Assembly: GCA_023957155.1 (NCBI GenBank)
Contig: JAMLHK010000008.1
Coordinates: 180,188-244,187, forward strand
From: Chitinophagaceae bacterium
GTDB lineage: Bacteria; Bacteroidota; Bacteroidia; Chitinophagales; Chitinophagaceae
DNA length: 64,000 nucleotides
Direction: 5' to 3'
Made by a program: the position numbers and the translations under genes. The notes under the pieces are model-generated. The model was not told the origin of the DNA. It did no database searches and worked only from the letters and a program-made list of their open reading frames with translations. The first letter of the stretch is position 1, and every line of letters begins with the position of its first letter. This document shows, in pieces, positions 34,705 through 57,302 of this stretch.

Positions 34705-34780
34705 GGCCCCGTAGCTCACTTGAATACCTGCCTGGCGGCAGGCAGGGAGCATCTGATTATGGATCAGAAGGTTTGAAGTT
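34705..34780 (+). pseudogene. Broken tRNA-Arg copy with a 20-bp palindrome in the D-loop
   Basis: The sequence repeats the intact tRNA-Arg at 34807: the same GGCCCCGTAGCTCA start, the same anticodon stem (TCTGA/TCAGA) and AAGGTTTGAA. It differs in three ways. A perfect palindrome CCTGCCTGGCGGCAGGCAGG is inserted at 34727-34746 in the D-loop. The anticodon triplet reads ATG instead of ACG. In the T-arm, seven bases between two AGGTTT repeats are missing and the 3' acceptor strand is absent, so it cannot fold as a tRNA. Confidence 0.8.
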
Positions 34781-34806
34781 CTTTTGTATAGCGCTCTTTT
34801 TTTATT

Positions 34807-34923: not shown

Positions 34924-34930
34924 TACCATT

Positions 34931-35049
34931 GCACTGGGGTCTTCATTTAAAGCTGTTGCGTGCAGCTATGAGGCCCTGGTGCTAAGTAATTCGCCGGGGT
35001 CTCACCCTTTACTCAATTGCCTGGCCGTGAAGACTCCATCGGGACGAAA
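34931..35049 (+). repeat. Repeat R1, copy 1
   Basis: First of four copies of a ~118-bp element (others at 40583, 41435 and 46775). It opens with GCACTGGGGTCTTCA and closes with TGAAGACTCCATCGGGACGA, which pair as outer arms. Inside are AGCTG/CAGCT and TGAGGCCC/GGGTCTCA stems; the latter uses a G-T pair where copies 2 and 3 have A-T, so the structure is kept. It ends 28 bases from the stop codon of the minus-strand DUF5615 gene. Confidence 0.8.
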
Positions 35050-35077
35050 CGTTGTATAGTGAGGCTATGGCGAAGGA

Positions 35078-35431
35078 TCATTGGGATGATCTTATCCGGA
35101 TAACTTCTTTCTGAATAACGGTAAAAGCGTTAAGTAACTGATCTTTATATCTGAGTATTAAAGGGCAAACCATAGCTGCTCTTTCCTGGGTAGTAAATCC
35201 TTCCAGGCGAAGCAATATCACACCGGCGTGGTCTTTGTTCAAACGAAACACCAATTCGCCGAAATCCTTGTCTTTGGTAATCAGGATCCTTTTTTCGTTT
35301 GTTGCAATTTGCAGGATTATTTCATCATCCAAAGCCCGTACTTCATCTATAGTGTAAAAGACATCAAATCCTGATGACCGAAGCCCGTCAACAATACTTC
35401 GGTCCTCTCCTTCATCGGCTAAAAACATCAT
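35078..35431 (-). CDS. DUF5615 PIN-like toxin
   Basis: 117-aa protein of the Mut7-C/PIN-like DUF5615 family. The acidic PIN-type residues are visible: LADEGEDRSIV near the start, VRALDDEIILQIA and ITKDKDFGELVF. Members are predicted ribonuclease toxins. The start overlaps the stop of the DUF433 gene by four bases (35428-35431), so the pair is translationally coupled, which is the usual layout of DUF433/DUF5615 toxin-antitoxin modules. No experimental target is known. Confidence 0.88.
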   Translation of the reverse strand: MMFLADEGEDRSIVDGLRSSGFDVFYTIDEVRALDDEIILQIATNEKRILITKDKDFGELVFRLNKDHAGVILLRLEGFTTQERAAMVCPLILRYKDQLLNAFTVIQKEVIRIRSSQ

Positions 35432-35658
35432 ATGGCAACAGGATAAATTTTTTCTCCTTTCAGCGCTTCAGCGGCAAAAGCTAAGGCAGCAGAAATATCT
35501 TCTTTAGTAAGTCGTGGATAAGACAGCAAAAGATCATCAGCCGATTCACCTGCGGCAAGCGACTCCAGTATCAGCTCCACCGTGATGCGGGTTCCTTTGA
35601 TAACAGGCTTTCCCATCATAACACGCGGGTTAATTTCGATATGAGAAGCAATATCCAT
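35428..35658 (-). CDS. DUF433 antitoxin
   Basis: 76-aa DNA-binding antitoxin. The family core HIEINPRVMMGKPVIKGTRITVELILESLAAGES is followed by a helix-turn-helix-like segment (DDLLLSYPRLTKEDISAALAFA). I start it at ATG 35658; an in-frame TTG at 35667 would place the first codons inside the palindrome at 35662-35694, which instead looks like the operator. The module is probably autoregulated: antitoxin or complex binds the palindrome. Confidence 0.88.
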   Translation of the reverse strand: MDIASHIEINPRVMMGKPVIKGTRITVELILESLAAGESADDLLLSYPRLTKEDISAALAFAAEALKGEKIYPVAI

Positions 35659-35661
35659 AAT

Positions 35662-35694
35662 TATCAATTTGATAACAAAGTTATCAAATTGATA
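35662..35694. promoter_or_regulatory. 33-bp operator-like palindrome of the DUF433/DUF5615 module
   Basis: TATCAATTTGATAAC (35662-35676), a three-base AAA spacer and GTTATCAAATTGATA (35680-35694) form a perfect 15-bp inverted repeat. Each arm is itself nearly symmetric (TATCAATTTGATA), so two protein dimers could bind. It abuts the antitoxin ATG at 35658. Confidence 0.75.
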
Positions 35695-35759
35695 GACTAT
35701 TTTAAACGTGTTTCGGGCTTATCGTTTTTAGTAATGATTGATGCCCGAATCGTATTTAG

Positions 35760-35789
35760 ATGCCTCTCCCGAATATTCGGGAGAGGCAT
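35760..35789. repeat. Perfect 30-bp palindrome
   Basis: ATGCCTCTCCCGAAT (35760-35774) is followed without a gap by its exact reverse complement (35775-35789). There is no T-run, and no gene ends here in either direction. It is probably a small dispersed palindromic element. Confidence 0.7.
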
Positions 35790-35843
35790 GACTGGCAGGA
35801 GTGTAGTGATGGACGGAGGAACGGAATGATCGGCTCGGGATAC

Positions 35844-35995
35844 TAAAGCCTGGTAATGGCAGTTGAAACTCAACCCACACCCCTCTGCTCGTCACACCGA
35901 GGTATCTATTCCCCATTGCGCCGAGGCATTGAAGCGTCTGTTTCTTTCCTGGAACACGGAAGTATTGAGGCGTATCTCAGGATATGTTACCTTGT
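35844..35995 (+). repeat. Repeat R2, copy a (with R3 leader)
   Basis: Begins with AAAGCCTGGTAATGGCAGTT (leader R3, also at 40554 and, degenerate, at 46898), continues with CTCGTCACACCGAGGTATCT at 35888, and ends with GAACACGGAAGTATTGAGG and ATCTCAGG near 35980. Copies b-e share these blocks in varying combinations. It abuts the stop codon of the minus-strand gene at 35996. Confidence 0.6.
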
Positions 35996-36724
35996 CTAAT
36001 ATGCATACCTGCAAATGTTCTTTCCCAGCGTTATCCTTTGGGTAATATCTATATTTTCCAATTTGGTTCCGCCAGTATACATTTCCCAGTTAAGGGTACC
36101 TGACCATGTAATGGTAACCTGTTTGCCCGCATCTCCTGTATAAAATACAGTGCTTCCATTATTAGAATTATGAGAACAATCGCCCGGAGAACTGTAAGGT
36201 AACGAATATGTGCTACTATAAGGCGAAGTAATGGTTCCTCTTTTTATCCCTTCTACAAATACTTCAATATTTGCTGAGATCACTCGTTTTGTGTTCGAGG
36301 CGGTACTATGGCCGAGGCCGAATAAAATTTGTAATCCTCCTTTATCGGTAGTACCTGGGGTTTCTCCTGTACTGCCTGAGGTTGTCAGTTGCATGTTATA
36401 GCACTTTCCTTTTATAATATTCACCTTCCCTTTCCAATTCTTTCCAGAGCAGGAAGCGACAAAGTCATACTCTCCTGGTAGCAGGGAAAACGTTGCATAT
36501 CCCTCGGAACCGCATACAGGCGATGCCCCCGAAGTGGAGTAATGGGTGATGAGCTTGGTGTCTCCGCCACAATTAACTGTAATAGGACCACAGCCGAAAT
36601 CGGAGCCAATCCAAAAGATCACTTCTCCAAAATCAGACGGATTATCATCTTCGCTCGTATTTGCTTTCTCGCATCCGGCTATTAAAATGATTATTCCTAA
36701 AATAAGATTGTAAATTTTTTTCAT
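35996..36724 (-). CDS. Lipoprotein of unknown function
   Basis: 242-aa protein with a lipoprotein signal (MKKIYNLILGIIILIAGC, cysteine at about residue 18). The mature part is rich in glycine, serine and threonine. Its first half contains several cysteines (DFGCGPITVNCGGDT, SPVCGSEGYATF) and resembles a small beta-sandwich that ends in a YDFVASCSGKNWKGKV strand. The second half is linked by a GSTGETPGTTDKGG stretch. I do not recognise the family. I start at ATG 36724; ATG 36733 adds three residues. It is the last of four exported genes on the minus strand, separated from the next by repeat R2b. Confidence 0.7.
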   Translation of the reverse strand: MKKIYNLILGIIILIAGCEKANTSEDDNPSDFGEVIFWIGSDFGCGPITVNCGGDTKLITHYSTSGASPVCGSEGYATFSLLPGEYDFVASCSGKNWKGKVNIIKGKCYNMQLTTSGSTGETPGTTDKGGLQILFGLGHSTASNTKRVISANIEVFVEGIKRGTITSPYSSTYSLPYSSPGDCSHNSNNGSTVFYTGDAGKQVTITWSGTLNWEMYTGGTKLENIDITQRITLGKNICRYAY

Positions 36725-36795
36725 GTTGATCATTTATTTAAAAGGGAAAAATACCGAAGGTTTGACAGTTGTCTCCGCTCGCACTCGGTGCAGAA

Positions 36796-36977
36796 CCGCA
36801 TCCATACTCCCCTGCTCGTCACACCGGGGAATCGAGGCGTCCCTCCACGGAATACCGAAGCATTGAGGTGGCGTTGTTATATTGGGAGACTGAAGCCGAT
36901 TAGCGGACAAAGTCCGAATATGTATTCGCCGTGCTGCCATATTGAACCGCATGTTGTGTGTTCGTACTTTTGCTAAG
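36796..36977 (+). repeat. Repeat R2, copy b
   Basis: AACCGCATCC then CTCGTCACACCGGGGAATCG (from 36815) and ACGGAATACCGAAGCATTGAGG align with copy d at 42725 over about 60 bases. The right half differs but again contains a GCGGACAAAGTCCG hairpin (about 36903-36915), the counterpart of GCGGGACGAAGTCCCG in copies c and d. It abuts the stop codon of the minus-strand gene at 36978. Confidence 0.6.
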
Positions 36978-37676
36978 CTAACTTTTAAAAGACCTTATTA
37001 AGTCCTGCGTACAAAGAGTGATAAACTCTTCAAGAGTATTGACTGAAACCGTTTCTCTTAATTCAACTTTCTTGTTATGTCGTTTTCCAGTGAATTTAAA
37101 AGTACCAACTTCACAACCTTTAGGGCAAGGCTGATAATTGTATTTGTAAGTGCCTGCAATTTCATTGTTTTTAACCATTATTAGTCTAAACTCAACAGAT
37201 GCACCATATTTTTTATAGTCAACATTGCCAATTTGCTCTGTTTCTTTTTTCTTGCTAACGAGCGTAATTTTGTTTGTCGTGTAAACTACTGCCGGGTCAA
37301 TATTTACTACTTCCAAAATGACATCAGTATTTGTCAATTCTTTTATTTTGGAGTAGTCTGTTGTCTGAGATTTACTTAATAGTTCATTAAATAGTCCCCT
37401 GTCTCTAACACTAAACCCTTGTTTCAGTAATCCTTTTTCAATTGCGTTATACAGCACATTATTATCCTTGCTTGTACTTGTATTGCTCGTTGCTTTATCG
37501 TTGTTGTTGGGGACTCTCAATACTATGTTTGGTGTATTATTAGTATTGAAAAATTCCTTTAAATTATTGTTTGCAAATACTTCGTCTGACTGCTTTGGAA
37601 ATTTGATAACTTTTGTTGCAGATGAACAAGAAAGTAGGGTTACAGTAATGGCTGCACATAAAATTAAATTACGCAT
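36978..37676 (-). CDS. Lipoprotein of unknown function (possible CsgG/TolB-N-like fold)
   Basis: 232-aa protein with a clear lipobox (TVTLLSC, cysteine at about residue 17). The mature region has an IVLRVPNNNDK strand, a serine/threonine/asparagine-rich linker, then NNVLYNAIEKGLLKQGFSVRDRGLFNELL and IKELTNTDVILEVVNIDP. The pattern 'low-number lipoprotein strand, helix, -GFSVRDRG-, then T(D/N)VILEV' resembles proteins with a CsgG/FlgT-N-like fold that assess envelope or secretion pores. No close family is recognised. A C-terminal strand-rich part follows (YKYNYQPCPKGCEVGTFKF). It is third of the four exported genes on this strand. Confidence 0.65.
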   Translation of the reverse strand: MRNLILCAAITVTLLSCSSATKVIKFPKQSDEVFANNNLKEFFNTNNTPNIVLRVPNNNDKATSNTSTSKDNNVLYNAIEKGLLKQGFSVRDRGLFNELLSKSQTTDYSKIKELTNTDVILEVVNIDPAVVYTTNKITLVSKKKETEQIGNVDYKKYGASVEFRLIMVKNNEIAGTYKYNYQPCPKGCEVGTFKFTGKRHNKKVELRETVSVNTLEEFITLCTQDLIRSFKS

Positions 37677-37808
37677 AAATAATCATTGTGGTTTTAGTCA
37701 TGCCCATTATTAATGGTTATGAGGTGAGTGTCTGGGCATGACACACAACCTACATATTTGTGAGGAAATCTAAAGCATAGCGATGGGAAAACTGACACTC
37801 CTTTGCAG

Positions 37809-38864
37809 TTATTGTTGTACAAAAATTGTATTAGCAATCGCATTGCTATTCCCGTCAGAAAGAGCTTTGGCAATGCTATTTTCCCAAAGCATTGCTACTT
37901 TATTTCCTGAGGAATTTTCTTCATAGCCTGCTACATATACATCGTTTTCATAAACATAAATAGCATTCGCAGAAGCATCTGTAGCGCCACTGGTAAGATG
38001 GGTGGACTCTCCGTTTTTCCAAAGCATTGCCACTTTATTTCCTGAGGAATTTTCTTCGTAACCTGCTACATATACATCGCTGCCGGAAACAAATACTGAC
38101 AGGGCGTACGCTTTGGTTGCACCGTTTGTGAGTCTCGTGCCTAAGCGGTTTTTCCATATAATTGCATATATTCTTCCGTCAGTTTCTTTTTCATATCCTA
38201 CTGTGTATGCATCATTGCCCGAAACAAATACTGACCAGGCCATAGCCTGATAATAAATGCCAAATGAAAGATTAATTATTTCATTGTTTTTCCATAGTAT
38301 TGCTGTTGGTAGACGAGAAGGGTCCACTAATGTTGTCCATCCTGCTACATACACATTGTTGTCGGAAACAAATACTGAGGTGGCTTCTCCTACATCGTTG
38401 GCGGGGTTTTTGTCTGGGTTTGACGAGAGTAAATTGGGCTGCCCGTTTTTCCACAGTAAAGGGATCATAGATGGGTTGGCATCTTGGGTGCCTGCCACGT
38501 ACACGTCGTTATTGGACACATATACGGAAGAGGCAGAGCCGTTTGAGCGCCCATTAAGATTCAGGTTCATTTCTATTCCATTTTTCCAGAGCTTTGGAAA
38601 AAAAGATCCCTCATATCCCACGGCATAAACATCATTGTCGGAAATAAAAACAGATCTAACGTCCGACAAACCTGTGCTTCGGCTTAGGCTTAGTGCCGAT
38701 TCTGAACCATTTTTCCATAATACTGCTTTATTTGCGTCAGAGCCACCTACATATATTTGAGACTTGCTGTTATGTGAATCTGTATTGTTTTTCTTACAAC
38801 CTGTGGAAAAAAATAAGGCAATGGCATAAAAACCTAATAAGGTAATTGTTACTGTTTTTTTCAT
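37809..38864 (-). CDS. Lipoprotein made of ~45-aa propeller-like repeats
   Basis: 351-aa protein with lipobox FFSTGC (cysteine at about residue 23). The rest is seven tandem repeats, each with the pattern S-V-F-V-S-G-N-D-V-Y-V-A-G-Y-E followed by a variable turn and A-x-L-W-K-N-G. Together they probably form a seven-bladed beta-propeller displayed on the cell surface or in the periplasm. The last two full repeats share AGYEENSSGNKVAMLW exactly and are almost identical in DNA (37893-37950 and 38022-38080), which points to recent internal duplication. Similar repeat lipoproteins are common in Bacteroidota and often carry the label 'hypothetical'; no ligand is known. Confidence 0.78.
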   Translation of the reverse strand: MKKTVTITLLGFYAIALFFSTGCKKNNTDSHNSKSQIYVGGSDANKAVLWKNGSESALSLSRSTGLSDVRSVFISDNDVYAVGYEGSFFPKLWKNGIEMNLNLNGRSNGSASSVYVSNNDVYVAGTQDANPSMIPLLWKNGQPNLLSSNPDKNPANDVGEATSVFVSDNNVYVAGWTTLVDPSRLPTAILWKNNEIINLSFGIYYQAMAWSVFVSGNDAYTVGYEKETDGRIYAIIWKNRLGTRLTNGATKAYALSVFVSGSDVYVAGYEENSSGNKVAMLWKNGESTHLTSGATDASANAIYVYENDVYVAGYEENSSGNKVAMLWENSIAKALSDGNSNAIANTIFVQQ

Positions 38865-38890
38865 TTTTTATACTTTTTACGGTTGTATTA

Positions 38891-40348
38891 TTAAAATATC
38901 CAGCCCGTTTTAAAGAGACGTATGGAAAAATATTGCTTGCTGTCATTGGTGAAATTATTGGGATATTCTATCGCGCCTCCTTTGTAATAGTCTTTGGATA
39001 GGGAATAGTTAACATCCAACAGTAGATAACTGGAGAATAGTATCTGGGCACTGAGTAAAAGCCCATCTTCATAACTGATTTCAAAATGCCTGTTAGAATC
39101 GTTGAATTTTTCAATAAAAGCGCCGAGCCGTAAATAAGATTCTTTTCTTTCCGCTTCATTTATCCAATTGAGTTGAATACCGCCACCAAAACGATCAACT
39201 TGGTACGAATAGCTTGCATTTCGAATAATGCTATAGTCCGAGGAAAGTCCAATGCTTGCATTTGCAGCATCGGAATCATAATTATATTCACCCCCCCTAA
39301 TGAGTTCCTGAGCTTCACCAAATAACTTAAATCTTGCATTTGCAGATGCTCCTAATAATAATGTAGCTGTACCACCATACGACCAGTGCAGTCCGTTGGT
39401 TCCGGGTGTAAGTGCATTCATGCCGTATGAACCGGATCCAGATAGATGGAGCGAAATACCTTTATTGTTTAAGATACCCCATTTTAAACTACCTTGAGCG
39501 ATAGGGTGACTTGATACATCAATTGTGCTTACTTTATTATTATCATTGTTGACAATTAGCGGTATATGTTCCAATCCAAGCCCAAGGTAAAATTTAGCAA
39601 AGCTTGGTTTGTTTGTCCAATGATCTTCTATTAATGCAGCAATTCCGACAACTGCACCTGCGGACGCGGCCATGGCAACATTCTCAGCATCATCTGCTTT
39701 TTTGACAGACTCAACTCTTTGTTTTCTTATTTCATTATTAATAGAATCCTGTTCGCGTTTTAGTTCTGCAGCAGCCAGCCTTTCTTCTTCGACCTTTATT
39801 TTTGCTTGCTCTTCGTTTTTTTTCTTTTCCGTTGCTTGTTTTTCCTTTTCTTCTTTTTCTCTTTGCGCAGCTTCAGTCTTTACCTGTTTTTCCTTTTCTT
39901 CTTCTTTGCGCTTTAGGTTTTCTTCTGCTTTTTGTTGTTTCTTAGTATTTTCATTTCTATCAATTTCAGCCCTTATTGAATTGATCAATACATTCGTGAT
40001 TTTTCCACCTTTTTGTTTTGTATCAATTACATCACTTTCCGTATGAGCCCAACCCATACCCACAGTTTGCCCCCCTTTGAATTTCCATTCGTGCCGATTA
40101 TCTATTTTAGATCCATTGCTCAATACAAGGGTTGTAGTCCAATAAAGCCATAGGTCTGATGATGAATGGTTGGTAAACTGATATGTAACATATTGCATAC
40201 CTGTGGATGGTTCTCCAATTTCCGCTTTAATGGTAAAATAAACCCCATTGCCGATATGTGCATTATTCCATGCAAGTTTTTTGGGGTATTGTGCAAAGGC
40301 AGTTAATATCATTACCGTGCATATTGTTGAAATAAATAGTCGTCTCAT
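38891..40348 (-). CDS. Exported protein: N-terminal beta domain, long charged coiled coil, C-terminal outer-membrane-like barrel
   Basis: 485-aa protein, first of the four exported genes. A signal peptide ends at about residue 19 (ILTAFAQ). Residues ~20-115 form a beta-rich domain (YVTYQFTNHSSSDLWLYW). Residues ~125-220 are an alanine-, glutamate- and lysine-rich coiled coil of the type found in TolA (KRKEEEKEKQVKTEAAQREK). A hydrophobic segment (VAMAASAGAVVGIAALIE) precedes a C-terminal ~240 residues of alternating strands that end SKQYFSIRLFKTGWIF, suggesting an outer-membrane barrel. I know no named family with this layout. It may span the periplasm (inference). Confidence 0.7.
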   Translation of the reverse strand: MRRLFISTICTVMILTAFAQYPKKLAWNNAHIGNGVYFTIKAEIGEPSTGMQYVTYQFTNHSSSDLWLYWTTTLVLSNGSKIDNRHEWKFKGGQTVGMGWAHTESDVIDTKQKGGKITNVLINSIRAEIDRNENTKKQQKAEENLKRKEEEKEKQVKTEAAQREKEEKEKQATEKKKNEEQAKIKVEEERLAAAELKREQDSINNEIRKQRVESVKKADDAENVAMAASAGAVVGIAALIEDHWTNKPSFAKFYLGLGLEHIPLIVNNDNNKVSTIDVSSHPIAQGSLKWGILNNKGISLHLSGSGSYGMNALTPGTNGLHWSYGGTATLLLGASANARFKLFGEAQELIRGGEYNYDSDAANASIGLSSDYSIIRNASYSYQVDRFGGGIQLNWINEAERKESYLRLGAFIEKFNDSNRHFEISYEDGLLLSAQILFSSYLLLDVNYSLSKDYYKGGAIEYPNNFTNDSKQYFSIRLFKTGWIF

Positions 40349-40553
40349 TGCTGTTTTTTAGGAGTAAATAACTGTCATTGGCTACCATAATATAGAATCA
40401 TTAGTAGCTAACCCGAAGGGTAGTTCAAAAGCAGATCAGGATATGGAGGTTCGCCAAACGGAGATTGAACAGTAGGGGTGTTTTCCGATAGCAAAACAAA
40501 AATAAGTACCTGTTCCGGTGCGCCGAATAGCTATAAATAGTCATTTTTTACAC

Positions 40554-40577
40554 CAAAGCCTGGCAATGGCAATTGAA
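40554..40577 (+). repeat. R3 leader segment (isolated copy)
   Basis: AAAGCCTGGCAATGGCAATTG repeats the leader of R2a (35844) with few changes. Here it is followed directly by R1 copy 2, not by R2. Confidence 0.55.
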
Positions 40578-40582
40578 CGGTC

Positions 40583-40700
40583 GCACCGGGGTCTTCATTC
40601 AAAGCTGTTGCGGGCAGCTATGAGACCCTGGTGCTAAGAGATTCGCCGGGGTCTCAGCCTTTGCACAATGCCTGGCTGTGAAGACCCCGTCGGGACGAAA
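40583..40700 (+). repeat. Repeat R1, copy 2
   Basis: 118 bp, almost identical to copy 3 (two C/T changes by eye). Outer arms GGGGTCTTCA / TGAAGACCCC pair perfectly; inner stems are AGCTG/CAGCT and TGAGACCC/GGGTCTCA. It lies in the 573-base spacer between the exported-protein gene and the toxin at 40922, with R3 on its left and R2c on its right. Confidence 0.85.
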
Positions 40701-40818
40701 AGCTACGAGGCTTCTATAAAAAACCTCAAGGAAGAAATTGTTTTTTTACGTGGTTTGGTAAATGGTAAGGGAAAGTGAGTTGCCCGGAGCGCTCCTTTTT
40801 TTCGGGAGTATTATATTC

Positions 40819-40918
40819 ATCGAGGTGCCTGCCCTCATCTACGGAACACAGAAGCCTTGATGCGGGACGGAGTCCCGAAAGAACATAGGGAGTACGAAGT
40901 CGGAGACATCGTACAGCG
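40819..40918 (+). repeat. Repeat R2, copy c
   Basis: From 40834 the sequence is nearly identical to copy d over ~84 bases, with two hairpins: CGGGAC-GGA-GTCCCG (about 40863-40877) and GTACGA ... TCGTAC (about 40892-40913). It ends three bases before the stop codon of the minus-strand toxin gene. Confidence 0.75.
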
Positions 40919-40921
40919 GGG

Positions 40922-41221
40922 CTACCAGTGTATTAATTTTGAAGATATAAATTCGCAGACAATTAATTCATCATCGGTTTCTATAAATACTACCGTATAT
41001 TTCTTTTTATAAGAAATACATTTATAGCCTAACGATGCTCTAAGGGGTTCCCGGCATATTTTGTATGATTTTTTATCACCTGCCAGTGTTTGAATGTAGT
41101 TGTATACATCATCGGAAAACTTTTCGGCGGTAGCTAACATTCCTTTTGACTCGATATACCACGCGATGGCCGCAATGCTTTCGGCAACTTCGGGCCTGAT
41201 CATTACTTTTCTGATGCCCAT
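40922..41221 (-). CDS. RelE/ParE-family toxin
   Basis: 99-aa protein with the RelE/ParE fold: a start VMIRPEVAESIAAIAWYIES, then AEKFSDDVYNYIQTLA, and a C-terminal strand block KCISYKKKYTVVFIETDDELIVCEFIS. Such toxins cleave mRNA on the ribosome (RelE) or poison gyrase (ParE); which applies is not visible. Its ATG lies 19 bases inside the upstream 56-aa gene, so the two are translationally coupled. The stop codon directly abuts repeat R2c. Confidence 0.82.
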   Translation of the reverse strand: MGIRKVMIRPEVAESIAAIAWYIESKGMLATAEKFSDDVYNYIQTLAGDKKSYKICREPLRASLGYKCISYKKKYTVVFIETDDELIVCEFISSKLIHW

Positions 41222-41373
41222 TTGCGAATAAGTTTTTTACTATACGCGCGGGCCTGCGTTGCTGTCAAAAGTTTTTGAGGTTTGGTTTTTAAAGCCGCTT
41301 TTAATTGCAGTGCATGGTATTCCTTTTCGGGGATCAGCACGTATTTCTTTTTATCTATTACAATTTGCGTCAT
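41203..41373 (-). CDS. Small antitoxin for the RelE/ParE-type toxin
   Basis: 56-aa protein starting MTQIVIDKKKYVLIPEKEYHA and ending SKKLIRKWASEK. The first part resembles the short beta-hairpin start of Bacteroidota RelB/ParD-like antitoxins that carry an IPEKEY/LIP..EY motif. The basic C-terminus may bind the toxin. It overlaps the toxin start by 19 bases, the usual order antitoxin-toxin. The product is short, but its position and coupling make it a solid gene. Confidence 0.72.
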   Translation of the reverse strand: MTQIVIDKKKYVLIPEKEYHALQLKAALKTKPQKLLTATQARAYSKKLIRKWASEK

Positions 41374-41434
41374 GCGTTAAAGATACAAAAAATTTGTAGT
41401 CGCGTTGTTCGTAAAGACACGAACTATTACCGTC

Positions 41435-41552
41435 GCACCGGGGTCTTCATTTAAAGCTGTTGCGGGCAGTTATGAGACCCTGGTGCTAAGAGATTCGCCG
41501 GGGTCTCAGCCTTTGCACAATGCCTGGCTGTGAAGACCCCGTCGGGACGAAA
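41435..41552 (+). repeat. Repeat R1, copy 3
   Basis: 118 bp, two differences from copy 2. The AGCTG/CAGTT stem keeps pairing through a G-T pair. It lies 62 bases upstream of the minus-strand antitoxin start and 99 bases before the luxR-like pseudogene, so unlike the other copies it is not behind a stop codon. Confidence 0.85.
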
Positions 41553-41650
41553 AATGATATTTTATTGTGTTCTTCCTCTTGGCAATTAGAACACGTTGTT
41601 TTACTTTTAATATAGAAGAAGCAATCCCTATAGCTTAAACCCTTTTTTAC

Positions 41651-42433
41651 ATGAATCGGCCTCTTCCTCAATCTTATTGGGATTATCTCAAAGTCGCCTC
41701 TAAATATACCGGGTGCGACCCGTTGGATTTTGACAAAACGATCGCTTTGTTTTAGCCTTATGTGGCGGGACTCTTCCCCACCCTCCCCGTATTAGTGTTT
41801 TTGCTGGACTTTTCACAGAAGCAGTACCTGTTCATGAGCAAGTCTTCCCGATTAGTGCTGGGGTACCCCGCTGAATATGTAATGGACGGAGGACTTGAAT
41901 TTATCCGCAGGCAATACAGAACGGAAGATTTCCGGGTTTATTCAGAGAAGATCTTCATGCAAAACCTTTATCTTTTGAAGCAGCAGCCGGCTGATCATTC
42001 GTGCCTGATGTTTGGGTACAATTATCGTTTCCTGAATAAGGACGGGGAATACCATACCCTTATGCAGAAATCGGTTATGCTCCGGTCGGCTCCCGACGGA
42101 TCACCGATAACCATGCTGAGCTTCGCTTTTGATATTACCGATTATAAGAACGATTCAAAGATCATTCATACCGTGGAGGCGATCAGCGACCAGGGGCTGG
42201 TACCGCTTTCAAAAAATTTCTATTTCCCTCACCCGGAGGATGCCATACTAAGCAGGCGGGAGATTGAGATATTGAAATGGATCTGCGACGGACTGAGCAG
42301 TAAGGAAATTGCCGGTAAGCTGCACCTGAGTCTTCATACGGTTAATAACCATCGTAAAAATATGCTCCAGAAATGCAATTGCAGGAATGCTACTGAACTG
42401 CTGGCTTTCAGCATTAGAGAGGGGCTGATTTAA
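41651..42433 (+). pseudogene. LuxR-type PAS regulator (copy A), interrupted by an amber codon
   Basis: The frame starts MNRPLPQSYWDYLKVASKYTG, hits TAG at 41753-41755 after 34 residues, and continues in the same frame to 42433. The N-terminal piece and the continuation (GLFPTLPVLVFLLDFSQKQYL...) both align with the intact paralogue at 45089, so a single C-to-T change in a CAG codon explains the stop. The remaining 223 codons from GTG 41762 still encode a PAS-like domain (about 20-130) and a complete LuxR helix-turn-helix (LSRREIEILKWICDGLSSKE). A truncated regulator could be made from this internal GTG, or TAG could be read through; I treat it as broken. Confidence 0.75.
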
Positions 42434-42489
42434 AAATACGACATACCGTTGGGATGAAGGGGTTGACTAAAAAGGTTTGGTCTAAAGAT

Positions 42490-42566
42490 ATGCCGCTAAG
42501 ACTCAAAGACACAAAGTCCTGATCTTCAGGGTTAATTTTCTTCGTGTCTTTGTGACTTCGTGGCAA
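42490..42566. repeat. Imperfect inverted repeat of the CTTTGTGTCTT type
   Basis: GCCGCTAAGACTCAAAGACA-type sequence (about 42491-42515) is answered by CTTCGTGTCTTTGTGACTTC (about 42541-42562), matching at roughly 20 of 25 positions. Repeats with these words occur in many Bacteroidota and other genomes. It lies behind the luxR-like pseudogene. Confidence 0.6.
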
Positions 42567-42610
42567 AATATCACTTTTTGGTCAGCCCCTGGCTATGTTA
42601 AGACTGCCGG

Positions 42611-42708
42611 ATCGTAGCTCTCAGGCGATGTGGATTTTCTTTGGTGGAATAATAATACATAACCACCATTTTCCCATCGCTGCTGCATACCACACGGGGA
42701 TAGCCCAG
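42611..42708 (-). pseudogene. Remnant of a sialidase gene 3' end
   Basis: 98 bases align without gaps with 47014-47111, the last part of the sialidase gene, at about 80-85% identity by eye. The translation reads LGYPRVVCSSDGKMVVMYYY, matching the sialidase LGYPRVVCRSDGKMVAMYYY, and ends NPHRLRATI. Only the last ~35 codons are left; the sequence upstream of them is repeat R2d. It is a fossil of a duplication that included the sialidase end. Confidence 0.8.
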
Positions 42709-42724
42709 TAACGAGGCGTCTGTT

Positions 42725-42834
42725 CTCGTCACGCCGGGGAATCGAGATGTCCCTCTACGGAACACAGAAGCCTTGAGGCGGGACGAAGTCCCGGAAGAAC
42801 ATAGGGAGTACGAAGTCGGAGACATCGTACAGCG
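42725..42834 (+). repeat. Repeat R2, copy d
   Basis: The most complete copy: CTCGTCACGCCGGGGAATCG, then CTACGGAACACAGAAGCC, hairpin CGGGAC-GAA-GTCCCG (about 42779-42793), AACATAGGGA, and hairpin GTACGA ... TCGTAC (about 42808-42830). It matches copy b on the left half and copy c on the right half. It lies 31 bases from the CapA stop codon. Confidence 0.75.
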
Positions 42835-42865
42835 CCGGAATTACCGGCTTACTTTGCACCTCACG

Positions 42866-44092
42866 CTAAATTGTTATTCGCAATATTTGTTGCCCGGTAT
42901 CTGCCTGCTGAACCACAGCTGTGGCTACGGCGTGTTTGACGTAGGTCTTCTCCTCCCCGTTGATCATCCCTTTTGCAAGAACGATCTCTGCCACATCACT
43001 CCGGATAAGGTGATCCGCTGAAAACGGGTTGACAAGATTTCCCAACGAATAATAAATTGGCACTACCCTGTTAGCATCTCTTTGGGTCCGGTAATATTCT
43101 ACCGGCTGCACCACATGGGGGTGATGACCTATAATAAGATCAATGCCCAGTTCTGCAAGATGATGAGCTGTTTCAATCTGCCAGGGCCTCGGATAAAACT
43201 CATGCTCATACCCCCAATGCAATTGCGCTATAATAAAATCGGCTTTATGCCGGCGACAAAATTCGATCTGTTTTGCTATTCCTGAGAAATCAATTTGGGA
43301 AGAATTGTCATTCAGATTGAGCCTGTTCACGAGCCAGGGTTTATCAGCGGGCGGCTTTTTGGCGTTTAGTCCGAACGTCCAGCAAAGTATACCAATGTTT
43401 ACATGTTTCTTTTCAATGATGGTGGCTTTGAAGCAGTCTTCGGGCGAAAAGTTTAACCCGTGAAAGGCTGTGCCATGTTCATCCAGCACGGCTGCCGTGG
43501 AGAAAGCGCCTTCTACTCCCAGGTCAAGACTATGATTACAGGCAGCGGACATAAAATCGTAAGGACGTTTTCCGGAGTTGTTAAGCACTGCAAAAGCCCG
43601 GGGATGACAGGAAAGGGCAGGGCCCGTATGCTTTCGCATTAACAGGGTATCATTTTTTTCTTCGGAAATACAACATTCGAGGTTGGCCATAGCGATGTCT
43701 TTGCCGAAGATCAGCTCCTGTACATCCTTGTAAAGTGTTGCTCCCGAATTGACCAGGTAGGGATGGATCATCAAATCGCCTGCGGCAGCTAAGCTTAGCT
43801 CCTGTTGTATTGAAAAATTGTCCGGGATTGCCGGGCGGGAGTTTGCCTGGCGTGCAAAAAAATCTTCCAGCCCCGCATTCTTCCAGGCGCTCCGGATGGG
43901 ATATACGGTTTTGTATAACCAGTAAATCTTGTCCATCGTTGTCATTGTTTCCAGGTCGCCGCTGGCTTCAACCGGGTAGGTCCACAACCCCGTTGTTTTG
44001 TAAAACCATATAGCAGCATTATAAATAACCCAATCCTTCGGCTGTAATTTAAAAATGTCTTTTGCCGTTACAGGGAGTTGAGCTGCTCTCAT
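42866..44092 (-). CDS. CapA family protein (metallophosphoesterase-like)
   Basis: 408-aa protein. The CapA/PgsA metallophosphatase fold is seen from about residue 95: LAAAGDLMIHPYLVNSG, IAMANLECCIS, AACNHSLDLGVEGAF, FIIAQLHWGYEHEF, GIDLIIGHHPHVVQPVE and IYYSLGNLVN carry the expected metal-ligand histidines and asparagines. Family members take part in poly-gamma-glutamate capsule synthesis or polymer export, but most have untested roles, and no pgsB/pgsC partner is present. The first ~90 residues (RAAQLPVTAKDIFKLQPKDW) are an extra N-terminal part without a signal peptide. It lies 44 bases downstream of the broken hydrolase gene, probably as one transcription unit. Confidence 0.88.
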   Translation of the reverse strand: MRAAQLPVTAKDIFKLQPKDWVIYNAAIWFYKTTGLWTYPVEASGDLETMTTMDKIYWLYKTVYPIRSAWKNAGLEDFFARQANSRPAIPDNFSIQQELSLAAAGDLMIHPYLVNSGATLYKDVQELIFGKDIAMANLECCISEEKNDTLLMRKHTGPALSCHPRAFAVLNNSGKRPYDFMSAACNHSLDLGVEGAFSTAAVLDEHGTAFHGLNFSPEDCFKATIIEKKHVNIGILCWTFGLNAKKPPADKPWLVNRLNLNDNSSQIDFSGIAKQIEFCRRHKADFIIAQLHWGYEHEFYPRPWQIETAHHLAELGIDLIIGHHPHVVQPVEYYRTQRDANRVVPIYYSLGNLVNPFSADHLIRSDVAEIVLAKGMINGEEKTYVKHAVATAVVQQADTGQQILRITI

Positions 44093-44136
44093 ATAAAGAA
44101 CCGATCGGATAAATTACAGGTGTTAAATAATAATAG

Positions 44137-44959
44137 CTAATGAGAAAAAGATGCTTCGAGATAAGCCAGCAGAAGCGCATTGAACGTTTCAGGCTCGTCC
44201 CGCGGCACATAGTGCCCCACGCCGGGTAATTTATATATGCGGTCTTTCCAGGCTTTGAAGGGTTGATCATCGAGGTAATCTATCTGAAGCATGTCGTCTT
44301 CCATTCCCATAATGACCTGTACGGAGAGACCTGTTTTTTTCAATAAGGCGATCTCGTCAGACATTTCACCGGCAGTAACACTCCGGATCAATGCTGACCG
44401 GAAAGGTGGTTTTGCCAGGAAAAAATCATCCGTGTGGATGGCTACGCTCTCTGTGTCGGGATGCTTCAGCAGCAATGAAAATGCAGCCATAACCTGCTCT
44501 CTTTCCGCTACATCATGGAAAAAGATGTAGTCATTGGCATTAAATATTTTTTCAAGACCGTGTTGTTCACCTGTAACGAACGGCGATGCTAATGAAATGC
44601 CCTTTGGTGATATATGATGGTTCAGTATTTCCGCAACAACATTTGTTCCATAAGAAAACCCTGCCAGGCAGAAGGGTTTCTCCTTTGCTATTTTTTTGAT
44701 AGCTTCCGCCAGTATGCTGCCTGCCGTGAGCGGACTGAAGTCTATATTTTTTGTTTTTTCAATCAGCGAGGTTGCCGCACCCGGGTATATCAAAAGCAAC
44801 AAGATGGAAGGGATCAAAAAGAGGATCTTTAAATTGTTTGATCCAGGTGCGCTTCGAACCTGAATTGCCGTGAATAAAAAAAACGAGTTGCTCCTGTTCC
44901 CTGTTTTTCTCCATATAGCCAACCTGTATACCGCCGGCTTCAATAAATTTTGTTTCCAT
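44137..44959 (-). pseudogene. Alpha/beta hydrolase (copy A), frameshifted
   Basis: The N-terminal frame starts METKFIEAGGIQVGYMEKN and runs to a stop at 44759 (FFIHGNSGSKRTW, LVAFDIPGCG). The rest of the protein lies in another frame, from about 44785 down to 44137 (SLIEKTKNIDF ... AGFSYGTNVVAEIL ... GVGHYVPRDEPETF). A one-base indel near 44765-44785 separates the oxyanion-hole part from the nucleophile GFSYG and the catalytic histidine. The intact paralogue at 45878-46726 shows the joined order. A sequencing error is possible, but the neighbouring luxR-like copy A is broken too, which favours real decay. Confidence 0.78.
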
Positions 44960-45068
44960 ATAGCATTAAAGTTAAAGGGAATCTCAGTAGCAGTTGAAGC
45001 TCAAACCTATTATTTTTCTGCTAAGCTAAAAATATGGAAGCTAAGATAACGTTCAACCGTTTTTTAGT

Positions 45069-45076
45069 TATATTTG
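45069..45076 (+). promoter_or_regulatory. -7 promoter element of luxR-like copy B
   Basis: TATATTTG fits TAnnTTTG. It overlaps an in-frame TTG at 45074, so the true start is taken as the ATG at 45089. Confidence 0.45.
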
Positions 45077-45088
45077 GAATATCCTTTT

Positions 45089-45877
45089 ATGCGCCCGGCC
45101 TACGCACCATACCTGGATTTCCTGGAAACAGCGAAATATGCTTATCCCTTTATGCGGGATATAAGCATGAAAGGGGGCATGATAACCCGGCTTGAGTGTC
45201 AAAGCGGTCTTTTTCAGAATACGCATAACCCGATGCTGTTCCTGCTTGACTTTTCTCAAAGGAGGTACCTCAGCATGAGCCCTCTGATACAACCTGTACT
45301 GGGCTATTCTTCGCAATATGTGATAGACGGCGGTATTGACCTTATACTGGAGAAATACCATCCGGATGACGGGAGAATATATTTTGACGATATATTCTTT
45401 AAAAATATTGAATTCCTGCGCCGGCAACCGGTTGAAACGCATCCCGGATTTTGCTTCAGCTATAATTACCGGTTTAAGAACAGAAAAGGCGAATACCGTA
45501 CCATTTTACAGCGATTTACCATGATCCGGTCGGCCCCGGACGGAACACCCCTGCTGATGATGGCTTCATTGGCGGATATAACCCATTTTAAAAAAGAAGG
45601 GAAGATCATCCATACTATTGAACGGATGAATGGCCACGAACTGGAGCTGTTATATAAGCACACCTATTTCCACCGCCCGGAAGAGCGGGTAATGAGCAAA
45701 CGGGAACTGGAAGTACTTAAATATATCACAGACGGATTAAGCAGTAAGCAGATCGCTGATAAAATGGCCCTCAGCATTTACACCATACATAACCACCGGA
45801 AAAATATGCTCGAAAAAACCAATTGTAAAAACACGGCGGAATTGCTGTATTTTGCTATCGAGCATGGGTTGTTGTAA
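45089..45877 (+). CDS. LuxR-type transcriptional regulator with PAS-like domain (copy B)
   Basis: 262-aa regulator. Residues ~50-175 form a PAS-like sensor: MLFLLDFSQRRYLSMSPLI, VLGYSSQYVIDGG, FCFSYNYRFKNRKGEYRTIL, then LLMMASLADITHF, a typical PAS beta-sheet core. The C-terminal ~60 residues are a LuxR/GerE helix-turn-helix (MSKRELEVLKYITDGLSSKQ, TIHNHRKNMLEKTN). It is the intact partner of the broken copy A. Its stop codon abuts that of the convergent hydrolase. Ligand and targets are unknown; the stable pairing with a hydrolase gene suggests a functional link (inference). Confidence 0.88.
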   Translation: MRPAYAPYLDFLETAKYAYPFMRDISMKGGMITRLECQSGLFQNTHNPMLFLLDFSQRRYLSMSPLIQPVLGYSSQYVIDGGIDLILEKYHPDDGRIYFDDIFFKNIEFLRRQPVETHPGFCFSYNYRFKNRKGEYRTILQRFTMIRSAPDGTPLLMMASLADITHFKKEGKIIHTIERMNGHELELLYKHTYFHRPEERVMSKRELEVLKYITDGLSSKQIADKMALSIYTIHNHRKNMLEKTNCKNTAELLYFAIEHGLL

Positions 45878-46726
45878 TCATCCTGCATTAAATCCTGAAA
45901 ATGCATCCAGGGCATACGCCAGCAGGTAATCATTAAAGGCGTCAGGATCGTCCAACTGGATGAAATGTCCTCCCGGTAATTTTATGCCCCGGTTTTTCCA
46001 AAGCAAAAAGGGTGGATCGTTTAAGTAATCAGGGTTAACTACTTTTTCGTCTTTTCCAAATACCAGCAAAACAGGCAAGCCTGATTGCTGTATCATTTCG
46101 GGTTCATTGCTGTATAGACTATTTGCTATGGATTGTAACAGGCTGGAACGAAAAGGAGTCTGAACGGAAAAATAGTCTTTCATTATTTGTTGAAGCTCAT
46201 CTGTACCGGTGGTAGGTATCACCGCTTTATATCCCTTTTCGACCGTTTCGGCAGGTGGGGAATCCTGGAAAAAGAAAGCGCTGTCTGTACCGGGTAAAAA
46301 TACCTTGTCTAAAGTGTAATTTCCTCCGGTTATGCAGGATCCGGCCAGCACCAGCCCTACGGGCTTTATGCCGCAAGAGAGCATTTCAGCTATGATATTG
46401 GTACCCAGAGAAACTCCACACAAAATATAATTCTCCTCTGAAGAGAATGCCTGTACTGCTTTTGCTATAATGCGTCCCAGTCCTTTTAGCGTATAATCAT
46501 CTGCCGGATCGGGAGAAATCGAGGACCGGCCATGTGCGGGAAGATCAAATGCAATAAGCCGGTAATGCATAAGCAGGGCGCTTGCAAATTGTTTGCTCCA
46601 GGCTGCGGAGGAAGCAGAATTGCCATGAATAAAAAAAATGGTATGCTTCGATTGATGATTTTGCTCGTAATAAGCAATACGGATACCATCAACCATGATG
46701 AAATTGGGGGATGGAAACGACATCAT
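45878..46726 (-). CDS. Alpha/beta hydrolase (copy B)
   Basis: 282-aa alpha/beta-fold hydrolase with an intact catalytic set: oxyanion region FFIHGNSASSAAW, nucleophile in CGVSLGTN, acid in VFGKDEKVV and histidine in LPGGHFIQLDDP. No signal peptide is seen, so it is cytoplasmic. The sequence is of the small-molecule esterase/lactonase/haloperoxidase type, and the substrate is not predictable. It is convergent with luxR-like copy B, stop to stop. The same pair of genes is duplicated, in broken form, at 41651 and 44137. Confidence 0.88.
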   Translation of the reverse strand: MMSFPSPNFIMVDGIRIAYYEQNHQSKHTIFFIHGNSASSAAWSKQFASALLMHYRLIAFDLPAHGRSSISPDPADDYTLKGLGRIIAKAVQAFSSEENYILCGVSLGTNIIAEMLSCGIKPVGLVLAGSCITGGNYTLDKVFLPGTDSAFFFQDSPPAETVEKGYKAVIPTTGTDELQQIMKDYFSVQTPFRSSLLQSIANSLYSNEPEMIQQSGLPVLLVFGKDEKVVNPDYLNDPPFLLWKNRGIKLPGGHFIQLDDPDAFNDYLLAYALDAFSGFNAG

Positions 46727-46774
46727 ATTATATTAATAGTCAATAGTATAAAATAACTATTACGCACTACCATC

Positions 46775-46890
46775 GCACCGGGGTATTCATTCAAAGCCAT
46801 TGTGGGTAGCTATGAGACCCTGGTGCTAAGAGATTCACTTGGGCCAGCCTTTGCACAATACCTGGCCGTGAAGACCCCGTAGGGACGAAA
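46775..46890 (+). repeat. Repeat R1, copy 4
   Basis: 116 bp and the most diverged copy: GCACCGGGGTATTCATTC to CCCCGTAGGGACGA. The TGAGACCC arm is kept, but its partner has changed to TTGGGCCAG, so that inner stem is weak. It is followed by a degenerate R3 (46898) and R2e. Confidence 0.75.
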
Positions 46891-46897
46891 GGATACC

Positions 46898-47000
46898 CGG
46901 CCTGGCCGTGGGAGTTGAAGCCCAATCCGCATCCTTCAGCTTGTCACACCGAGGTACGAGGTGTCTATTCATTTGACCCGTCCTGGAAACCATATCTCAG
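46898..47000 (+). repeat. Repeat R2, copy e (with degenerate R3)
   Basis: GGCCTGGCCGTGGGAGTTGAA resembles R3, then AATCCGCATCC and CTTGTCACACCGAGGTACGAG (from 46940) match copies a and b, and TCCTGGAAACCATATCTCAG matches the end of copy a. It abuts the sialidase stop codon at 47001. Confidence 0.6.
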
Positions 47001-48245
47001 TTATGGCTCCCATATCGTAGCTCTCAGGTGATGCGGGTTTTCTTTTGTTGAATAATAATACATAGCTACCATTTTACCATCGCTGCGGCACACTACGCGG
47101 GGGTAGCCCAGGTCGTTCAGCTGCATATCTTCCGACCAGAAGCCATCCATAAGTATCTGCGGCTCACTCCATGTTTTTCCCTTGTCGGCGCTATATACCA
47201 CGCGAATGGTGCCTTCATTCCGTTCACCATACACTACGCATAAGCGGCCGTCTTTGGTAAGGGCGAAGGACGGCGGGTTCCCGTTCTCGTTCCCGGTATC
47301 GGCAACTTTTGATAAAAAGCTCCATGTTTTACCGCCATCAGTGGAAGTATAAGCGTCAATCCAGTGCTTATCCGTACCCTCTCCGTTTACAATATATTTT
47401 CTCCGGATCATTGATATGATCGTACCATCGTCTAACTTCTGCGATTGCGACATCACGGCACGACATTCATTGGCATAAGGATTTTTATCCGCATCTTCAA
47501 ACAGGTTGACTTTTACCTGGCTCCCTGAGGTTTCAGTACCTGCGGGGCCTACTACCCAGCCCTGAAAATGATAGGTTTTTCCGCCGTCAGTGGTTTCGAT
47601 ACAGAAAAGCCGGTCAGTAGAAAATTTGTTTTTCTTTCGTGCAGAAACAAACAGCAAACAACTGCTGCTGTCATTCACAATATAATCTGTTCTGGGCGTA
47701 AGCTCATCAAAGCCGGCTGCTGTTATTTCGGGCCAGCCCAGTACATCTCCGAAGCCGTAAGGCCCGTTCCATGTTTTGCCGGCATCGTAGCTGTAAAAGA
47801 AATGGCCTCTTCCGTCTGTTGCTCCATGATAGGCTTCGCCAACTACCCGCATGGCAAAGCCGGGTTGTTTGTAATTGATGGGGGTGTCTATCATTTTTAC
47901 GTCGGGTCGTTCGCCAAAATCTCCGGCATAGTTGTCGGGATCTGCGGCAGTCCATGTTTTGCCGCCATCGGTACTGCGTGCCAGCCAGTTTAAGTAAGGT
48001 TTGGCTGCATTATGGCTGTTTGTTATTTTATAGTTCGCTTCAATAAAACCGGTAACAATTTCATCGTTATTAAAAATGAAAGCACCGCAGTTAGCCGGCC
48101 ATCCGGCAAATTTTCCGGGCTGGTAATAAATGATGGCATGTTGCGCATCTTTTACATGCTTTAATGCTTCCTCTGAAGAATGATCGCACGAAGTGGCGAG
48201 AAATGTCCATGCTGCGAGGACGGTGAAGGAGAAAAAGAGCTTCAT
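47001..48245 (-). CDS. Sialidase-family (BNR repeat) lipoprotein
   Basis: 414-aa protein with lipobox FLATSC (cysteine at residue 20), so it is membrane-anchored. The mature part is a six-bladed propeller with five Asp-box motifs: STDGGKTWTAAD, SYDAGKTWNGP, TTDGGKTYHF, STDGGKTWSF and SADKGKTWSEP. An arginine-rich MIRRKYIVNG and a C-terminal GYPRVVCRSDGKMVAMYY strand could supply substrate contacts. The fold is shared by exo-sialidases and other propeller glycosidases; whether the sialidase arginine triad is complete cannot be confirmed by eye. A remnant of its 3' end lies at 42611. Confidence 0.85.
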   Translation of the reverse strand: MKLFFSFTVLAAWTFLATSCDHSSEEALKHVKDAQHAIIYYQPGKFAGWPANCGAFIFNNDEIVTGFIEANYKITNSHNAAKPYLNWLARSTDGGKTWTAADPDNYAGDFGERPDVKMIDTPINYKQPGFAMRVVGEAYHGATDGRGHFFYSYDAGKTWNGPYGFGDVLGWPEITAAGFDELTPRTDYIVNDSSSCLLFVSARKKNKFSTDRLFCIETTDGGKTYHFQGWVVGPAGTETSGSQVKVNLFEDADKNPYANECRAVMSQSQKLDDGTIISMIRRKYIVNGEGTDKHWIDAYTSTDGGKTWSFLSKVADTGNENGNPPSFALTKDGRLCVVYGERNEGTIRVVYSADKGKTWSEPQILMDGFWSEDMQLNDLGYPRVVCRSDGKMVAMYYYSTKENPHHLRATIWEP

Positions 48246-57018: not shown

Positions 57019-57046
57019 TTTTTCAAACTCTTTAGAAAAATAAAGA

Positions 57047-57220
57047 TTATTTTTTCTTAGGAGCGGCTTTCTTTGCAGCTTTTTTAGGAGCAGCTTTCTT
57101 AGCAGCCTTTTTAGGAGCAGCCTTTTTAGCAGCTTTCTTAGGAGCGGCTTTCTTTGCAGCTTTTTTAGGAGCAGCTTTTTTGGCGGCTTTTTTAGGAGCG
57201 GCTTTTTTAGCAGTTGCCAT
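57047..57220 (-). CDS. Histone H1-like alanine/lysine/proline-rich protein
   Basis: 57-aa protein starting MATAKKAAPKKAAKK and built from six tandem copies of AAPKKAAKK, ending in three lysines. It is the lysine-rich C-terminal type of the bacterial H1-like proteins (Hc1/HU-tail type) found in Bacteroidota, expected to bind DNA by charge with little fixed structure. It lies 82 bases downstream of rpmA and ends at a terminator, so it may be read from the L21-L27 promoter. The short length and repetitive sequence explain why gene finders may miss it, but the start, stop and surroundings are clean. Confidence 0.82.
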   Translation of the reverse strand: MATAKKAAPKKAAKKAAPKKAAKKAAPKKAAKKAAPKKAAKKAAPKKAAKKAAPKKK

Positions 57221-57302
57221 GTTTTTTAGAATTTAATGGTTAGTTAATAATGGATTAACGTCATAAAAGTAAAAACATTTTTCCAACTGCAAAATTTTTT
57301 TT

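Follow-up and report, generated by a model that had tools for sequence, protein, structure and literature searches.

R1 is a dispersed repeat of about 118 bp, four copies of which (a to d, in their order along the DNA) lie in the window, that is, the whole 64,000-nt stretch of a Chitinophagaceae bacterium genome analysed here. With a probability of roughly 0.85, R1 is a miniature, non-autonomous mobile element comparable to REPINs (REP doublets) and PATEs (palindrome-associated transposable elements), in which the left and right end hairpins of an element encoding a RAYT (REP-associated tyrosine transposase) are joined without the transposase gene. The existence of the family, its sharp edges and the presence of a cognate gene among R1 halves in two related genomes are read directly from the DNA, and from this sequence evidence we infer that R1 is mobile. 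R1 would then add a new family to a class of mobile repeats that is already known, and would not be a new RNA.

All four copies are found on the plus strand where the initial annotation had placed them, as borne out by BLAST and by the boundaries of a covariance model built from 17 copies. The copies, together with the two hairpins of the reference copy b, are as follows:

34928..35046, plus strand: R1 copy a (cmsearch 130.5 bits; BLAST 89% to copy b), immediately following a tRNA-Arg; a core without the A/T-rich edges.
40580..40697, plus strand: R1 copy b (cmsearch 139.5 bits), the reference copy.
40583..40634, plus strand: front hairpin of copy b; in the DNA fold, GCACC.GGGTCT.CAT pairs with ATG.AGACCC.GGTGC, with a small hairpin at the tip.
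40642..40699, plus strand: rear hairpin of copy b; in the DNA fold, CGGGGTCT pairs with AGACCCCG, and the foot reads TTCG/CGAA.
41432..41549, plus strand: R1 copy c (cmsearch 135.8 bits; 98% to copy b in the alignment).
46772..46887, plus strand: R1 copy d (cmsearch 100.1 bits), with a damaged inner stem and weak folding z-scores.

Within the genome, copies a, c and d are 89%, 98% and 88% identical to copy b by BLAST, and the E-values of all four copies (2e-37 or lower) exclude chance. Copies b and c differ, as had been counted by eye, at two positions inside the 118-nt core, with one further difference just outside it; they are near-identical, yet their flanks past the edges are unrelated. 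Across 70 aligned copies the edges are sharp, with TTAA before the core, AAAA after it and random sequence within about 4 nt on each side, and no direct repeat or target duplication is found. The edges themselves read GTC/GAC or TTC/GAA.

The copies had been thought confined to the accessory part of the window, but the genome holds 24 BLAST places and 27 model matches, which include 5 opposite-strand shadows and so reduce to about 22 places. A covariance-model search, of the kind proposed in the initial annotation, detects R1 at E 0.01 in 8 of the 12 genomes of the genus, presumably Agriterribacter for the window's genome too, and each of these genomes holds between 2 and 38 matches if shadows are counted. 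Under stricter filters, four of 147 sampled genomes of the family match, two of them inside the genus and two, weakly, outside it, and copy b has no match in plasmid or phage collections. The description of R1 as a dispersed, non-coding, structured repeat family is therefore supported. Among the titles listed in searches of open-licence PMC papers, none describes it.

The link to a transposase comes from a survey of Y1 genes near R1 in 12 genomes. In Agriterribacter humi YJ03 (G147), a gene for a RAYT of 187 aa lies among R1 units. On its left side lies the rear R1 hairpin in reverse complement, ending 51 nt before the ATG; on its right side lies the front R1 hairpin, likewise reverse-complemented, starting 19 nt after the stop codon. 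In terms of copy b, sequence matching identifies the front hairpin, reverse-complemented, with the right end of the A. humi element, and the rear hairpin, which then reads CGTCCCGACGGGG.., with the left end upstream of the start codon. A 3' gene fragment 6 kb from the intact gene is likewise followed, 19 nt after its stop, by the start of the front hairpin, part of which is deleted. A related metagenome-assembled genome (G155) encodes a RAYT whose gene is 89% identical to that of A. humi, with the left (rear R1) hairpin 50 nt before the ATG. The initial annotation had named overlap with a known transposon end as an observation that would tell against its own proposal; such an overlap is in effect what is seen, the ends being those of a RAYT element and the transposon being found in other genomes. 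The structure of R1 is explained by DNA hairpins that form the two ends of this element.

The A. humi and G155 proteins pass the curated model NF047646 (85.7 and 82.6 bits; cut-off 80), and their Pfam Y1_Tnp scores fall just under the cut-off (22.8 and 17.3 vs 23). The HUH and Y..NP residues are invariant in all eight aligned homologs, and the predicted fold (mean pLDDT 83.5) has as its top PDB match the structure of a RAYT in complex with a REP hairpin (4er8; Foldseek E 1.9e-7, TM 0.59/0.67), followed by IS200/IS605 transposases. The curated model, the HUH and Y---NP motifs and the Y1 fold all place both proteins within the RAYT/TnpAREP family.

Long R1 copies (150-155 nt) bear on how the miniature arose. 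In four of the seven, the RAYT leader is matched between the hairpins, with 0-1 of 1000 shuffles giving as good a match (for the better of the leaders), and it is absent from all four ordinary short copies tested. As between the loss of the gene from a full element and the entry of a gene into an R1, the leader-keeping copies favour gene loss.

Several observations weigh against R1 being a gene-less RAYT element. Three of the seven long copies have no leader, and in G155 the RAYT gene is followed, 10 nt after its stop, by the start of a tandem array of whole R1 units rather than by a lone front hairpin. In the window's genome (G000), whose assembly is 88% complete, the RAYT nearest to the cognate gene product is 46% identical, and G151, with its 30 R1 model matches, has no close one either. 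Of the four genomes rich in copies, A. humi, which has the intact gene, holds the most divergent R1 (nearest-neighbour identity has a median of 0.81 there, compared with 0.85 in G151, 0.89 in G000 and 0.96 in G155), so the presence of the transposase does not simply track the youth of the copies. R1 also adjoins Y1 genes of another type. Since the best gene in the window's genome reaches only 46%, present-day activity there is doubtful, and its copies are probably relics, or are moved by a gene that the genome has lost or the assembly lacks.

Movement of R1 may be pictured on the model of RAYT and IS200/IS605 proteins (established knowledge; PMC6006769). When a strand becomes single-stranded, for instance at a replication fork, the two R1 hairpins would fold; the RAYT would recognise them through the short tag beside each; its catalytic tyrosine would cut and rejoin the strand; and a copy of R1 would be placed elsewhere without target duplication. 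In one comparison, a block of about 240 bp with R1 is present in one and absent from the other of A. humi and G155, but this block includes other sequence, and no clean empty site is found among the five alignments shown. Separately, G000 and G155 (loci L012 and L135) share a block of 8.7 kb that contains an R1 copy and is 94% identical, while the two segments next to it at these loci are about 78% identical; this block may reflect a recent transfer.

The fold described in the initial annotation was read there as a sign of selection on structure. The closing stem and both inner stems do exist, but they are unequal between copies, and the closing-stem fold has a competitor, a second fold in which two long hairpins follow one another. 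Three of the window copies were folded (a, b and d). Copy b beats all 200 shuffles (z -5.5 as DNA, -5.7 as RNA), copy a reaches z -1.8 as DNA and -3.8 as RNA, and copy d is weak, with z -2.3 as DNA and only -1.5 as RNA. In the full element the two ends lie about 600 nt apart, so each must work as a separate hairpin; the closing-stem fold presumably follows from the ends being mutual inverted repeats.

Covariation was assessed on 60 R1 copies of about 119 nt, leaving out long and partial copies, same-site duplicates and matches under about 60 bits. The covariation score and the cells changed on both sides (58 vs 40.1 in shuffles for the two-hairpin fold, 44 vs 32.0 for the closing-stem fold) exceed all 500 shuffles for both folds, and paired cells amount to 83.2% (shuffles 82.1) and 87.8% (86.7), respectively. 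The pairs changed on both sides number 14 vs 11.2 in the two-hairpin fold, with 47 of 500 shuffles as high, and 9 vs 8.2 in the closing-stem fold, with 213 of 500; for pair types, 87 and 405 of 500 shuffles reach the observed value. Covariation above background, which the initial annotation had anticipated, is modest: it appears on three of five measures, but the two rated by the tool as reliable do not show it clearly. The clearest paired change of the closing-stem fold, an outermost G-C replaced by T-A in 12 copies, could also reflect both ends keeping one tag for one protein. Some paired changes exist, but selection on R1 as RNA is unsupported.

These data bear most directly on the alternative that R1 is a structured non-coding RNA or a cis-acting RNA element, such as a terminator or mRNA stabiliser, with its fold under selection. 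The stable folds of most tested copies and the two measures that exceed every shuffle would suit it, but both-side-changed pairs and pair types do not clearly exceed shuffles, and the gaps that hold copies a to d are, from the open reading frames, convergent, codirectional, divergent and codirectional, an arrangement at odds with any single cis role. In the window only a tRNA scores above the Rfam threshold, and no family matches R1 at its gathering score, in agreement with what had been noted from the sequence. The two R1 halves also bracket a transposase gene in other genomes. An RNA function is improbable.

Slightly less probable still is that R1 is mobilised by the adjacent IS200-like Y1 gene of the window's genome (C1:19916-20260 and C1:35528-35872). 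R1 abuts both copies of this gene, which has the signature Y---Q--HH; a different Y1 gene of A. humi that shares this signature is about 180 bp away from an R1. Both copies in the window's genome form, however, one duplicated block (98% over 829 bp), and in four other genomes close homologs (67-73%) have an inverted repeat of their own, AACCTTATTACCTTATT, and no R1 match at E 0.01. In the window's genome, this inverted repeat is exact only around these two genes, where it stands between gene and R1. Among 47 Y1/RAYT loci scanned, R1 is near these two, near the two cognate RAYTs and, 1.2 kb off, near one more. The adjacent gene was the first partner considered for R1, and was dropped on account of the homologs in other genera having their own inverted repeats and no R1.

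The Y---Q--HH genes deserve mention in their own right. IS200-like Y1 genes of this type (L023 and L024 in C1 of the window's genome; L077-L084) have in common an inverted repeat, of AACCTTATTACCTTATT and AACCTTAGTAG types, that flanks them in five genomes. PMC6006769 gives no REP for subclass 1.2, which has this signature, and the shared repeat may be its missing end sequence. Another Y1 gene, on contig C16 of A. humi, is interrupted by a palindrome that by eye is similar to CCTGCCTGGCGGCAGGCAGG; in the window, the short palindrome CCTGCCTGGCGGCAGGCAGG splits what appears, also by eye, to be a broken duplicate of the adjacent tRNA-Arg gene (34705-34785).

That R1 is a miniature inverted-repeat element (MITE) of a DDE transposase or an integron attC-like site is hardly credible: terminal inverted repeats, short dispersed copies and local one-orientation arrays would agree with it, but the 70 aligned edges have no target duplication, which counts against the former, the spacings of 0.7-10 kb with genes on both strands are unlike cassettes, the gene among the halves encodes a RAYT and not a DDE transposase or integrase, and the attC core, which we take to be GTTRRRY/RYYYAAC, is not at the R1 ends, so that the attC site suggested by orientation and spacing was rejected.

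Neighbouring R1 copies agree in orientation in 29 of 29 pairs less than 20 kb apart and in 6 of 12 pairs beyond that distance, for matches with E up to about 1e-4. The weaker matches left out of this list include two distant pairs that disagree (G151 C2 and G147 C34), some near pairs that agree and, in G000 C7, two partial copies that lie close together but disagree (69213, minus; 69308, plus). At 44 of 68 loci the R1 strand has a positive GC skew (two-sided p 0.02; loci under 7 kb left out). A genome-wide replication-strand bias was considered and is not shown, given that the distant pairs agree no more often than stated. Tandem arrays of R1 are present in G155.

R1 appears to work like a REPIN and to be built like a PATE. 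As in REPINs, paired inverted hairpins with a short spacer are dispersed between genes, and a cognate RAYT is flanked by the same repeats, which for R1 is seen in two related genomes, with both halves adjoining the gene in one of them, and not in the window's genome. R1 differs in lacking the GTAG/GTGG foot tag of classical REPINs, in place of which it has a (G/T)TCC-like tag, in hairpins of about 52-58 nt each with a second small stem, and in having about 22 copies rather than hundreds, with neighbours keeping one orientation. PATEs (PMC3119063) likewise consist of near-terminal palindromes fused after core deletion of a Y1-transposase element, without target duplication; they derive, however, from IS605-type elements of a haloarchaeon and are without terminal inverted repeats. 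R1 has fused ends and no target duplication, but derives from a RAYT element, and its two ends are inverted repeats of one another.

Also close to R1 are the REPtrons of TnpAREP subclass 2.6 (Quentin et al. 2018, PMC6006769), which share with R1 a class 2 protein (Y---NP), an origin in Bacteroidota and flanking secondary structures of a non-GT[AG]G kind with copies elsewhere in the genome. Neither the sequence nor the build of such a repeat is described in the sections consulted. Table 1 of that paper gives the motifs NH[LIV]H, WQ and YIH[QN]NP. The A. humi protein has NHMH and YIHYNP, but the stated W motif (WQ) is not visible in the RAYT alignment, and R1 is therefore given no subclass. The CGTC-tagged REPs of Di Nocera et al. 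(2013, PMC3733652) are also paired inverted units, and R1 copies b and c have CGTC at each end when read inwards. Families 1-4 of these repeats have a stem of 8-9 bp starting with A-T pairs, a loop of 4-5 and a CCA tail, and the authors found CGTC repeats to have no adjacent transposase; R1 differs in stems, loops and tails, its stems being longer, two-tier and starting with G-C pairs.

Other features of the window lie around the copies. A small gene that by eye is RelE/ParE-like (40922-41221) stands between copies b and c. One short intergenic repeat family occupies 40838-40918 and 42754-42834 (96% between copies), and another 35848-35904 and 46900-46956 (79%); the latter adjoins copy d, and sequence resembling its start adjoins copy b. 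The region 41762-48245 is a duplicated module: LuxR-type regulators (41762, 45074) and alpha/beta hydrolases (44137, 45878) each occur twice, and the 3' end of the BNR gene recurs as a 112-nt copy (42597 vs 47000, 84%). Further away, 57026-57240 consists of 12- and 15-nt tandem units, for which minus-strand coding would give an Ala/Lys/Pro-rich stretch, which we take to resemble histone H1-type proteins.

RAYT relatives occur at 32 loci in public genomes. In a scripted scan of the flanks of 11 RAYTs, GTCC lies directly outside the upstream hairpin in four and TTCC in one, the script having picked a different hairpin for some of the remaining loci. In Mucilaginibacter sp. SMC90, with a RAYT 56% identical, the flanking hairpin is found at 15 places (0 for a reversed control pattern); two of these border the RAYT, and others form two inverted doublets, with a spacing of about 90 bp, that resemble R1 in build. 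The 46% RAYT of the window's genome, on C20, is flanked by a different bipartite repeat with 8 places (C20:92160-93319, C1:319855-320671). At C25:90 kb, pieces of R1 are interspersed with partial copies of that repeat family. It thus seems that every RAYT of this branch has hairpins of its own, with R1 belonging to the A. humi/G155 type.

RAYT-linked repeats are best known with GTAG tags, and in Bacteroidota only atypical structures had been described previously. R1 provides the anatomy of such a repeat, linked end-to-end to its transposase gene and with intermediates that keep the gene's leader. The specificity of RAYTs for their hairpins thereby becomes testable outside the GTAG group, and one candidate RNA family is removed. 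A wider and more speculative proposal, less likely to hold than to fail, is that in this Bacteroidota branch the end hairpins used by RAYTs bear a (G/T)TCC tag in place of GTAG, and that the miniatures of the branch spread mainly over short ranges in a fixed orientation, sometimes as tandem arrays, as if copied into nearby same-strand DNA. If true, such spreading differs from the random distribution reported for REPINs, and the (G/T)TCC branch would supply a transposase for CGTC-like tagged repeats.

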